Below are positions 60,448 through 64,000 of a DNA stretch of 64,000 nt, piece after piece. A program made the translations under genes and the position numbers. The notes beneath the pieces were generated by a model. That model was not told the DNA's origin. It made no database searches and saw only the letters and a list, made by a program, of their open reading frames with translations. Source of the stretch: an uncultured Prochlorococcus sp. (lineage in GTDB: Bacteria > Cyanobacteriota > Cyanobacteriia > PCC-6307 > Cyanobiaceae); NCBI GenBank assembly GCA_902583265.1, contig CACHVD010000005.1, positions 1-64,000 of the forward strand. The letters run 5' to 3'. Position 1 is the first letter of the stretch. Each line of letters begins with the position of its first letter.

Positions 60448-60529
60448 GGGTCGGTGCCCGAGTGGTTAAAGGGGGCGGACTGTAAATCCGCTGGCTCTGC
60501 CTACGTTGGTTCAAATCCAACCCGGCCCA
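60448..60529 (+). tRNA. tRNA-Tyr (GTA)
   Basis: Class II tRNA; acceptor GGGTCGG/CCGGCCC, anticodon loop CTGTAAA, T-loop GGTTCAAATCC; CCA not encoded. Confidence 0.95.
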
Positions 60530-60539
60530 CTTTAAAATT

Positions 60540-60611
<72 letters not shown>

Positions 60612-60702
60612 TGGCCAAAACGCCCTCCATTACTAAGCTCTCAAAGAATTTAGGAAAAGTAGTAAATAGCTGTATACATCAAGATATATCGACAATATAG
60701 CG

Positions 60703-60726: not shown

Positions 60727-60762
60727 TTGCACTTTTAAGATGGCCAGTAGTAGCAGGGATTC

Positions 60763-61182
60763 TTGGGAAAAAAATTAAAAGATTTAATACGCACTAATAT
60801 TGCGGCTGGTTGGCGTGTAAATGGCGAAGATAGCGGTAAGACTAAAATCTTATACGTTTACAACGAAGGACTAGGTATGAGCAACAGGAGAACCTCTCAG
60901 ACCTTACCCATCGAATGGAAGAAAAATAATAGTGGTGACATTTTCAAGGCTGTTGAATTTATACAAAAATTAGTTGTTAAAAAAGATATTCCATTTAAAG
61001 AAGCGGCCAGAAGATATAAAGCACAATTCATTGAAGAAGATACAAAAACACCTAATAAAGCATGGGAAGATTTTCTAATAATTCCACCAAAATTTACTTA
61101 CAACAAAAAAGAATTTCAAAAAGCTAATCAGGAATATAAGGCAAAATTAAAAGCAACAACTGTTGACCAATTTAATAATTGA
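60763..61182 (+). pseudogene. Probable N-terminal (arm-binding/SAM-like) fragment of a tyrosine recombinase
   Basis: TTG start; IAAGWRVNGEDSGKTKILYVYNEGLGMSNRRTSQTLPIEWKKNNSGDIFKAVEFIQKLVVKKDIPFKEAARRYK resembles integrase N-termini; catalytic domain absent; adjacent to a tRNA gene. Confidence 0.5.
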
Positions 61183-61334
61183 CAATCTATTTACAATATA
61201 TGTGTGAGCACCTTCTTTTATTTATGGAAGAAAAAGGATTTAACGTAACTCAGGGAATGGCCTTGCTACTTTTGAAATTTACGCAGAATCAGAAGAATAA
61301 ATTACTCTATATGTAAGGAATAAGGTAAAAAAAA

Positions 61335-61679
61335 ATGTCTAGAAATATAATAAAAATTCTTGAAAAAAACTTTTCAGACTTAAAAGCTGGGCAGAAAATG
61401 CTTATTTCTTCCCCAGAAAAGATAGCTGAATACATTAAGAATATTCCAGAAGGCATACATAAGACTTCAAAAGAAATGAGATTAGATTTAGCAAAAGTAA
61501 TGGGCGCGGATAATTCTTGTCCAGTCTCAACAGGAATCTTCCTCAGGAAAGCAATTGAAGAACATGGGAAAGAGATTCCTTTTTGGAGATTGATTGATGA
61601 AAATCATCCATTAGTCAAAAAATTAAATTTAGACCCTAAAGAAATAAAATATATGAGAAATCTTGAGGGAATTGATTAA
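61335..61679 (+). CDS. Alkyltransferase-like (MGMT/ATL wHTH-type) small protein
   Basis: SPEKIAEYIKNIPEGIHKTSKEMRLDLAKVMGADNSCPVSTGIFLRKAIEE...IPFWRLIDENHPLVKKL; CPxSTGIF and PFWR pattern recalled from MGMT-family proteins. Confidence 0.6.
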   Translation: MSRNIIKILEKNFSDLKAGQKMLISSPEKIAEYIKNIPEGIHKTSKEMRLDLAKVMGADNSCPVSTGIFLRKAIEEHGKEIPFWRLIDENHPLVKKLNLDPKEIKYMRNLEGID

Positions 61680-61722
61680 TATTGAGTTGGAGTAATTTTT
61701 AATGAGTAGAGATCCTAAATAA

Positions 61723-61890
61723 ATGACCCTTGTAAATCCTTTAGCACTTGGAAAAGTCTTAAATAAATATAAGTTAACCCCTAAGAACAAACAGCAAGTA
61801 GTCCTATTATCTAAACGGAAAACCGCAACTTGGTCAGCCATACATAGACTTGCAAGAAAACTAGAATTTCAACAGACAGTAACCCAGTAA
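61723..61890 (+). CDS. Hypothetical small basic protein (55 aa)
   Basis: Manual reading: MTLVNPLALGKVLNKYKLTPKNKQQVVLLSKRKTATWSAIHRLARKLEFQQTVTQ*. Confidence 0.5.
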   Translation: MTLVNPLALGKVLNKYKLTPKNKQQVVLLSKRKTATWSAIHRLARKLEFQQTVTQ

Positions 61891-61911
61891 GAGCAACAGC
61901 AAAAACAGTAA

Positions 61912-62025
61912 ATGGAGTATTTAACTGACCTTTGGAATAATCAACCAAATATATTTATCGGTGTAGGTGTAGCAACCGCAGTATTGTTGGGGATTTATAT
62001 TTTCTTACTCAATACATATCAGTAA
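61912..62025 (+). CDS. Hypothetical single-TM micro-protein (37 aa)
   Basis: Manual reading: MEYLTDLWNNQPNIFIGVGVATAVLLGIYIFLLNTYQ*; directly abuts the GTG of the next ORF. Confidence 0.5.
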   Translation: MEYLTDLWNNQPNIFIGVGVATAVLLGIYIFLLNTYQ

Positions 62026-62274
62026 GTGGAGAAATTTACTCTTATTAATAAGGACAGAAACAGAATAAAAGTCTTTGAACCATTTGAAGATGTATCGAAG
62101 CCTAGTTCTAGTATTGATGCAATGATGATTAGTTATGGATGTGTTTATAAGAGAAGTAGTAAACCAGTTATGAAAGGAAGCAGGGTAGAAACTGTTGAGG
62201 CTGCTAGAAAAGAATATAAAGAACTATTAGAGCAGGGTTGGAAAAAGACCTCAATATTTAATTCTTATTTTTAG
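62026..62274 (+). CDS. DUF1651-like small protein
   Basis: GTG start; RVETVEAARKEYKELLEQGWKKTSIF resembles the picocyanobacterial DUF1651 C-terminal pattern. Confidence 0.5.
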   Translation: MEKFTLINKDRNRIKVFEPFEDVSKPSSSIDAMMISYGCVYKRSSKPVMKGSRVETVEAARKEYKELLEQGWKKTSIFNSYF

Positions 62275-62281
62275 TTATAGC

Positions 62282-62329
62282 GGGCGATGCACCATGCAAA
62301 GCTATGCAAGGTATAGCAAATGATCGCCC
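62282..62329. other. Nested inverted repeat / potential structured RNA or recombination hairpin
   Basis: Outer GGGCGAT (62282-62288)/ATCGCCC (62323-62329), inner GCTAT (62301-62305)/ATAGC (62313-62317). Confidence 0.5.
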
Positions 62330-62359
62330 AGAGGATAATTGAGAATCGTGAGAAGTCAA

Positions 62360-62408
62360 TCGGGGCGACAGGATTCGAACCTGCGACCTAGTGCTCCCAA
62401 AGCACTTG
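62360..62408 (-). pseudogene. Partial tRNA-Pro (TGG), 3' portion from anticodon arm to discriminator base
   Basis: Reverse complement CAAGTGCTTTGGGAGCACTAGGTCGCAGGTTCGAATCCTGTCGCCCCGA: intact anticodon stem-loop and T-arm, 3' acceptor strand present, 5' half absent. Confidence 0.9.
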
Positions 62409-62632
62409 TATGTAAAAATGAGAAAAACTTAAGAACGTAGATTATAACAAGTGTTATCTTTGTTGTTGGAACGTATTTGAGTCTCAAAATCATGCTTTAC
62501 GATCGCAAGAAGTAGCATGAGATCGTCCCCTAGCTCCCCCTCTAGCTCCCCTAGTTGCACCCGAGTGCCTTCTTCTTCATTATTATTACAAATTGACAGT
62601 AGATTAAAATAAAGGAAATAAGCACTTGTATC

Positions 62633-63175
62633 GTGAAAAAATTTCTTTTACCTTTTTTATTAATATTTTTATCAAGTTGCACTTTTGAAAAAGATTATAA
62701 AAGTGAATTAAAAGAAGAACTTAAAAATGAACTTAAAAATGAACTTAGGTTAGAACTTAAAAATGAACTTCAAAAGGGTGGTAATAAGAATAATGAGTTC
62801 CATCTAGAAATAATAGATGAAACTATATTGGGAATTAGCGATTTCAAGACTGATAAACCATCCTATGGTGGTTGTAGTTTTTCTGGAAACTTTAAATTTA
62901 ATATAAAAGTTCCTGAAAACTTTACAGGGAGTATTTCAGATATAGCAGCAACTTATTTATACAAGGGAGTTGAACAAGTTGGAAGTTTTTATGATGATTT
63001 TATTGATGGAAAATCTATTGAAGGTTCGTATGTGAGTGGATATGTTTCATCAGATGAAATGCTCACTAAAGAAGGATCTTTAATATGTTCAATTAATTCT
63101 TCAGATGACATAAAATTAAAATCATTTAGTAAAAAAACTCTTGTTCTAGAGGGCATTAAACCTTCTTTAAAATGA
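62633..63175 (+). CDS. Lipoprotein with Lys/Glu/Leu-rich repeated N-terminal helix
   Basis: GTG start; lipobox LLIFLSSC; ELKEELKNELKNELRLELKNELQ repeat encoded by repeated aaaaatgaactt units. Confidence 0.7.
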   Translation: MKKFLLPFLLIFLSSCTFEKDYKSELKEELKNELKNELRLELKNELQKGGNKNNEFHLEIIDETILGISDFKTDKPSYGGCSFSGNFKFNIKVPENFTGSISDIAATYLYKGVEQVGSFYDDFIDGKSIEGSYVSGYVSSDEMLTKEGSLICSINSSDDIKLKSFSKKTLVLEGIKPSLK

Positions 63176-64000
63176 AAAGATTACTATTTCCTCTATTAAT
63201 TGCAATCTCCTTCCCTAATTCTGTTAATGCAGAATTAGATACTGAAGTTCATAAGTTATGTTTGCAAGCTGCTGATTATGTAGGTTGCCTAAAAGCTCAA
63301 ACTAAGAATAAAAAAATTATTGCAGGTGAAATATCTGAAAATGGAGAATCCTTAATTGTTAATAGTTGCCCAGAGGGAAATGCTTATGTCGGGAATGGAT
63401 TATGTAAAAAAGTTGAATGTGAATATCCTATGGATCATTTCAAAGCTGCAAAGGGACATGATCAGATAGTTGCTGGTAAAAGTGATTGGAGTTGCAAGAA
63501 AAAATTTCTCAGAGGAGTTGGATTATTAACACTTGGAAGTGAGTTTACAAAGGCAAAAGTAAATAAAATATGTCCAAACTCTGAGCCTGAAATAGGATGG
63601 AAAAATAGCTGTGAAAAGGTAATATCTAAGCCCACTTTGATAACAAAAAAAAATATAAATTCCAGTATTGAGCCAAAAGAAAATTCAGATCTTAAATTAT
63701 CTATCCAAAACCAAAATCCTTCTTTAGTTGATATAAAAGTACCCTTACTTGAAGAAAAAGTGCCTTTAGGAAAAAAATTTGGATTAGGTAATTTCATATA
63801 TGACACTTATGAAGATACAGCAAGTGGTAAAACTGTTTTTACTAACTGGCTCATTAGTGTAAACGAGATTAATCTTTCATTCCCGTACAGTGGTTCACAA
63901 AATGGAATTTTAACAATTAGAAATCATCCAAGATTTGGGGAAGATATTATTTTTAGAATTGAAAAAGGTCAAATTCTATCTTTAGATGGAATTTCATTAG
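63172..64000 (+). CDS. Secreted hypothetical protein, Cys-containing (3' truncated by window)
   Basis: Manual reading from ATG at 63172 overlapping upstream TGA: MKRLLFPLLIAISFPNSVNAELDTEVHKLCLQAADYVGCLKAQTKNKK... open to window end; signal peptide ending VNA. Confidence 0.75.
   Translation, partial: MKRLLFPLLIAISFPNSVNAELDTEVHKLCLQAADYVGCLKAQTKNKKIIAGEISENGESLIVNSCPEGNAYVGNGLCKKVECEYPMDHFKAAKGHDQIVAGKSDWSCKKKFLRGVGLLTLGSEFTKAKVNKICPNSEPEIGWKNSCEKVISKPTLITKKNINSSIEPKENSDLKLSIQNQNPSLVDIKVPLLEEKVPLGKKFGLGNFIYDTYEDTASGKTVFTNWLISVNEINLSFPYSGSQNGILTIRNHPRFGEDIIFRIEKGQILSLDGISL

Follow-up and report, generated by a model that had tools for sequence, protein, structure and literature searches.

A tRNA-Pro 3′ fragment in a Prochlorococcus tRNA-Thr island as the probable attachment scar of a tycheposon-type element

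Prochlorococcus adapts largely through genomic islands, and the manner in which small sets of genes arrive in these islands is the question addressed here. The question is raised in a concrete form by the window (the whole stretch of 64,000 nucleotides from an uncultured Prochlorococcus that was analysed), in which a 3′ piece of a tRNA-Pro gene lies inside an island that starts at tRNA-Thr. A 48-bp tRNA-Pro 3′ repeat, PRE1, was reportedly found in islands of Prochlorococcus by Coleman et al. in 2006 and described as a repeat. The fragment in the window is presumably of the PRE1 kind; the two share the tRNA, the gene end, approximately the length, and a location in genomic islands of the same genus. 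Both the repeat and the class of elements discussed here are already known, whereas the cassette ends, the decay order and the integrase-less derivatives described below come, relative to that reported description of PRE1, from the present analysis. We consider it probable that the fragment is an attR scar of an element that integrates at tRNA-Pro, that repeated integration at this gene builds an array in order of age, and that most cassettes of such arrays have been moved in trans.

A 49-mer had been placed by the first-pass annotation on the minus strand at 62360-62408, and it is present there with 0 mismatches, the number expected by chance from shuffled sequences being 0.00. The extent assigned to it, from the anticodon arm to the 3′ end of the tRNA, is correct, but the length is not: the tRNA-derived block measures 46 bp (62360-62405), matches the 3′ portion of tRNA-Pro(TGG) at 46 of 46 positions between the anticodon stem and the final base, and comprises the 5′ strand of that stem (GTGC), the loop TTTGGGA and all that follows as far as the discriminator base A. 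In relatives, the intact tRNA-Pro (GCGCGGGTGCTTTGGGAGCACTAGGTC) reads ...GCGCGGGTGCTTTGGGAGCAC... around the boundary; therefore, the tRNA-derived sequence begins at GTGC, and the “CAA” beyond 62405 is flanking DNA, that is, the element's own end. The fragment does not belong to an intact tRNA-Pro gene in the window, where ARAGORN finds only tRNA-Tyr and tRNA-Thr intact, and its distance from tRNA-Thr, previously given as about 1.75 kb, is 1748 bp. The lack of an intact tRNA-Pro in the assembly of the source genome is explained by the incompleteness of that assembly (64% complete, 30 contigs). A second exact copy of the fragment lies on the same strand at contig position 64534-64571, 2.17 kb away and beyond the window, and the two copies bound a cassette of about 2.1 kb (Table 1).

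Table 1. Features of the window around the tRNA-Pro fragment
Feature	Position	Strand	Basis or remark
tRNA-Tyr(GTA), intact, beside tRNA-Thr	60448..60530	+	ARAGORN
tRNA-Thr(GGT), intact, start of the island, known type of integration site	60539..60612	+	ARAGORN
N-terminal remnant of a tyrosine integrase of the tRNA-Thr type, decayed	60740..61182	+	55.6% over 135 aa to the enzyme of G011
Stretch matching the tRNA-Pro array of the relative G008	61299..62273	+	96.5% over 975 bp
114-aa ORF within the G008-like stretch	61335-61679	+	
DUF1651-like ORF within the G008-like stretch	62026-62274	+	
Left-end module (ATTGACTTCTCACGATTCT type) of the adjoining older cassette, immediately following the scar	62264..62359	-	
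tRNA-Pro 3′ fragment, attR-type scar	62360..62405	-	all 46 bp as in the intact gene of relatives
Right-end module (about 167 bp) of the cassette that both fragments enclose	62406..62574	-	
Cargo ORF, 180 aa, lipoprotein-like N-terminus, without family match	62633..63175	+	
Cargo ORF, 401 aa, signal-peptide-like start	63172..64000, on to contig 64377	+	

The fragments in the window are antisense to the cargo genes, and Pfam and PHROG searches of this cargo gave only weak matches; the N-terminal part of the 401-aa product recurs in other proteins of relatives. The right-end module is also found in cassettes with unrelated cargo, and the cassette of the window resembles a 9-kb element of G008 at both termini (90% over 112 bp on the left, 76% over 166 bp on the right): the matched stretch on the right stops at the start codon of the integrase in G008, where unrelated cargo follows in the window. 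The window's cassette has no integrase, and none was found in the source genome at its assembled completeness of 64%. A C-rich motif is present within each of the two end modules of this cassette, CCTAGCTCCCCCTCTAGCTCCCC (window 62513-62560 and L003:4463-4487). Past the window, a very long repetitive ORF-like stretch, judged by eye to be of the calcium-binding-repeat type, extends over L003:5660-12152 (contig 65659-72151); it contains a repeat of at least 300 bp without mismatch, 1032 bp apart, which reflects either a recent duplication or an effect of assembly.

The site is carried by 226 of the 266 genomes of the genus, with up to 18 copies in each. Most of the named records in which the exact core occurs are from Prochlorococcus, and some are from Synechococcus and Cyanobium; the cultured Prochlorococcus strains MIT 9302 and MIT 9401 have the site. 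Other genera of the family usually hold only one to a few copies. Arrays were studied at 49 loci with an intact tRNA-Pro, which were picked for long contigs and not at random. In these 49 relatives the intact gene stands at the head of the array and the fragments follow 3′ of it on the same strand (232 downstream, as against just one on the other strand), whereas the fragments of the source genome sit in the tRNA-Thr island instead. In a few genomes, fragments on the opposite strand or upstream were also seen (G006 contig C2, 22700-43989 and 357640; G003 contig C3, 27341), suggesting inversions or further insertion sites. The first-pass annotation had read the fragment as an att-site remnant, and this reading is upheld, since the fragment is multi-copy, the intact tRNA-Pro heads the array of fragments in relatives, and the copies delimit strain-specific cassettes.

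The boundary of the fragments is sharp. Across 190 well-preserved copies, identity to the intact gene rises abruptly, from 0.36 to 0.94, at exactly one base, the second base of the anticodon stem, and the base preceding the homology block is a purine (A or G) in 185 of the 190, still pairing with T43. Such a pattern would be expected of an integrase that crosses over in the anticodon loop and binds in the stem. With distance from the intact gene, the fragments decay: exact copies make up 89% at rank 1, 50% by rank 4, about 22% in ranks 7-8 and 0% from rank 9 onwards, and mismatch to the intact tRNA-Pro increases along the array (Spearman 0.52; p 0.0002 by permutation within genomes). That the fragment persists because it has a role of its own, such as an RNA processing or termination signal, and that the repeats have spread through this role, is extremely improbable; the Rfam tRNA model does score one copy just above its cut-off and terminator-like hairpins do follow many copies, but free decay with distance and the antisense orientation of the window fragments to the cargo genes speak against it, and the hairpins belong to the left end of the cassettes and serve the intact tRNA best. 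Hairpins of this type are found no more than 70 nt from the left end in 44% of the cassettes and in the interior in 0.5%, the left-end frequency being 65% for the cassette adjacent to the tRNA (rank 0), so that insertion often supplies the tRNA with its terminator.

Between genomes, cassettes become less alike with increasing rank (Spearman -0.73): those close to the tRNA lie well above core identity, reaching 99.8% where core DNA is about 88% identical, and distal ones are at about core identity, which makes it likely that the proximal cassettes are recent transfers and the distal ones inherited. It could be argued that the intact tRNA, by gene conversion, repairs near fragments more than distant ones, in which case rank is not age; selection acts on the intact gene alone, which lies at the exact end of the array, and part of the decay gradient could arise in this manner. 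However, the bodies of the cassettes are out of reach of conversion by the tRNA and yet follow the same trend, and gene conversion as the whole explanation appears quite improbable. In homologous pairs of cassettes between genomes, 44 of 57 stand at different ranks. One integrase-less cassette of 3223 bp is shared by four genomes at 99.5-99.8% identity, the core identity of these genomes, measured on one 3.2-kb stretch, being 88-96%. Among the cassettes that are near-identical across divergent genomes, one set comprises ArsR, Gap, ArsJ and PstS-like genes and another is amino-acid ABC transporter-like (genes named by eye in both cases). Cassettes separated by scars have moved between species, and the enzymes that moved them were probably supplied by other elements. 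A photosystem II subunit-like protein is also encoded in a mobile island: the rank 9 cassette of the G002 array (about 2.6 kb, common to several genomes) specifies a 98-aa protein matching cytochrome b559 (PF00283, E 4e-8).

Measured from fragment to fragment, the 225 cassettes have a median size of 2.1 kb, and the arrays, which reach more than ten fragments, are mostly devoid of integrases. A motif, AGTYATA (search pattern RGTYATA), stands at fixed distances in 64% of the left and 30% of the right cassette ends, compared with 2% inside. The type of the left end is associated with that of the right end (mutual information 1.09, as compared with a mean of 0.47 and a maximum of 0.66 in shuffles), and therefore the cassettes behave as units. 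A tyrosine integrase lies beside a fragment in 13 of the 225 cassettes (about 6%), which are 4.7-16 kb in size; in these 13 the gene starts 139-170 bp inside the right end and encodes an enzyme of one of two related tyrosine integrase groups, while two small cassettes retain only an N-terminal integrase remnant. The enzymes match phage integrase families weakly, that of G008 having no Pfam match at all, and alignment reveals that the active-site R, RH, GH and Y positions are kept. Among the larger elements, that of G043 (16.3 kb) combines the integrase with nitrate assimilation genes (named by eye), and that of G008 (9.1 kb), with AAA, excisionase-like and integrase genes, looks like a satellite. 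The latter additionally encodes a second tyrosine recombinase of 212 aa (L088:3320-3958(+), PF00589, E 2.6e-24), which has relatives in two further elements of that size.

The ends also link the two kinds of cassette: 111 of the 210 integrase-less cassettes share their right end with integrase-bearing elements and 105 share both ends, the corresponding count for the mid-cassette control being 2. Because most cassettes, including the one in the window, lack an integrase and yet possess both ends, they have probably been moved in trans. The shared ends and the 46-bp repeats could also be used for homologous recombination, and neither an excised circle nor an empty site was seen. Such recombination between repeats or end modules after transformation or transduction, with the fragments as passive homology left by old integrations, would accommodate the occurrence of the same repeats and end modules in different arrays, the scarcity of integrases in the cassettes, and the fact that a site-specific event was not directly observed. 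Nevertheless, it would not lead one to expect end types that go in pairs with motifs at fixed distances, an integrase beside the fragment in the larger elements, or growth of the array from the tRNA end; it is unlikely to be the principal mechanism, though it may still add to the shuffling.

The window's cassettes sit inside a decayed tRNA-Thr island, and the cassette neighbouring the scar matches the tRNA-Pro array of G008 at 96.5% over 975 bp, as compared with 88% for core DNA. The integrase remnant beyond tRNA-Thr has an early frameshift in an A run and is missing its catalytic half. In G011, a genome rated 100% complete, three inverted tRNA-Pro fragments are located between tRNA-Thr, which an integrase adjoins, and a second copy of the tRNA-Thr 3′ end about 21 kb away; therefore, tRNA-Pro cassettes ride inside tRNA-Thr elements. 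The truncated integrase and the fragments of G011 within a tRNA-Thr-bounded element bear out the earlier suggestion of a second integration history at this locus. Insertion into an already existing fragment would be the simplest route by which the cassettes entered the tRNA-Thr island. That tRNA-Pro fragments were placed beside tRNA-Thr by an artefact of single-cell assembly or amplification is very improbable, even though the assembly is in 30 contigs and the fragments are inverted relative to tRNA-Thr: the same inverted fragments are present in the complete G011, a decayed fragment lies 551 bp after tRNA-Thr in G033, and the integrase remnant beside tRNA-Thr is what would be expected at that gene.

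Two broader propositions concerning tRNA-Thr were rejected. Fragments of tRNA-Pro are not general to tRNA-Thr islands, since 20 further loci yielded a decayed copy in G033 only; the window and G011 are thus a minority. Nor does tRNA-Thr head an array like that of tRNA-Pro, as about ten extra copies of the tRNA-Thr 3′ end were found, with 51 genomes giving a match, and tRNA-Pro is therefore an exceptional site.

The most probable model for integration at tRNA-Pro is as follows. An element would recombine either with the tRNA-Pro gene itself or with a copy of the 3′ half left earlier, most likely by crossing over in the anticodon loop TTTGGGA between both strands of the anticodon stem, presumably under catalysis by a phage-type tyrosine integrase, and the displaced 3′ half would become the fragment. 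Since the incoming element would carry a replacement 3′ half, often together with a terminator, the tRNA would stay functional while the old 3′ half was pushed downstream. Repetition of this event would generate an array in order of age; because selection keeps the tRNA intact, it would always be a competent target, and old fragments would decay and their cassettes become fixed. The integrases are probably provided in trans by full-length satellites, by cargo elements or by temperate phages. With regard to phages, the exact core occurs in eight virome contigs, two of which hold the whole tRNA-Pro; the other six have the core without the tRNA 5′ half and an integrase of the same kind on the contig, and four of these six were examined and carry tail, sigma-factor or recombination genes. 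They look like temperate phages with this attP, and such candidates could be a source of the integrase. The contigs L156, L157, L159, L160 and L161 have the tRNA-Pro core beside a related integrase, with phage genes where examined. A search by protein found no known phage with the integrase, and a search for the site in known phages gave one 42-bp match of 90.5% in a fecal phage record.

The elements described here may be compared with several systems, among them the tycheposons, reportedly treated by Hackl et al. in 2023. Secondary accounts give tycheposons as a tRNA-bordered, recombinase-bearing class in Prochlorococcus (PMC10872708, PMC10187409). Integration at a tRNA gene, a tyrosine recombinase, cargo such as nitrate assimilation genes, and satellite-like members are features that the elements of G043 and G008 fit, both of which carry a recombinase. 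By contrast, the window cassette, like most units of the arrays, is small and has no recombinase, a decayed remnant beside tRNA-Thr being the only trace, and it is therefore a probable deletion derivative rather than a member of the tycheposons; the fragment itself is judged to be the attachment scar of a tRNA-Pro element of tycheposon type. Islander recognizes an anticodon-centred attachment class, to which the boundary pattern found here corresponds, demands that each island contain an integrase and records no more than 4 tandems with at least three members (PMC4383910). Under its definition, the window fragment is a tRNA end piece and not internal to a tRNA gene, and a regenerated tRNA and a displaced 3′ fragment mark the ends of such islands, as in the arrays of relatives; however, the arrays here reach more than ten fragments, and an integrase is absent from the window cassette and present in 13 of the 225 cassettes of relatives. 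In the additive island of Methylopumilus, partial copies of a tRNA likewise recur along a variable island, but the tRNA (tRNA-Lys) and the hosts differ and only the last 20 bp are repeated (PMC10872708). CALIN are integrase-less arrays of integron cassettes, proposed to be moved in trans (PMC11389934). The present arrays grow in a polar fashion from one fixed site, as integrons do, and consist of cassettes without an integrase of their own; unlike CALIN, their sites are tRNA halves with phage-type attachment arms rather than attC, and their integrases are phage-type. These age-ordered arrays look like a CALIN-like variant.

It is tempting to go further and regard the whole as an integron-like system without an integron, a view that we hold to be somewhat better than even: tRNA-Pro would be a permanent insertion site maintained by selection, hundreds of small nutrient and stress cassettes consisting of cargo and ends only would be moved in trans by the integrases of satellites and temperate phages, and the array would be a time-ordered record that ages into fixation as its sites decay. 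With an age-ordered array, the gains of a single genome could be dated and put in sequence, and shared ends would tell which integrase moves which cassette, thus rendering the mechanism by which small gene sets arrive in Prochlorococcus islands testable.
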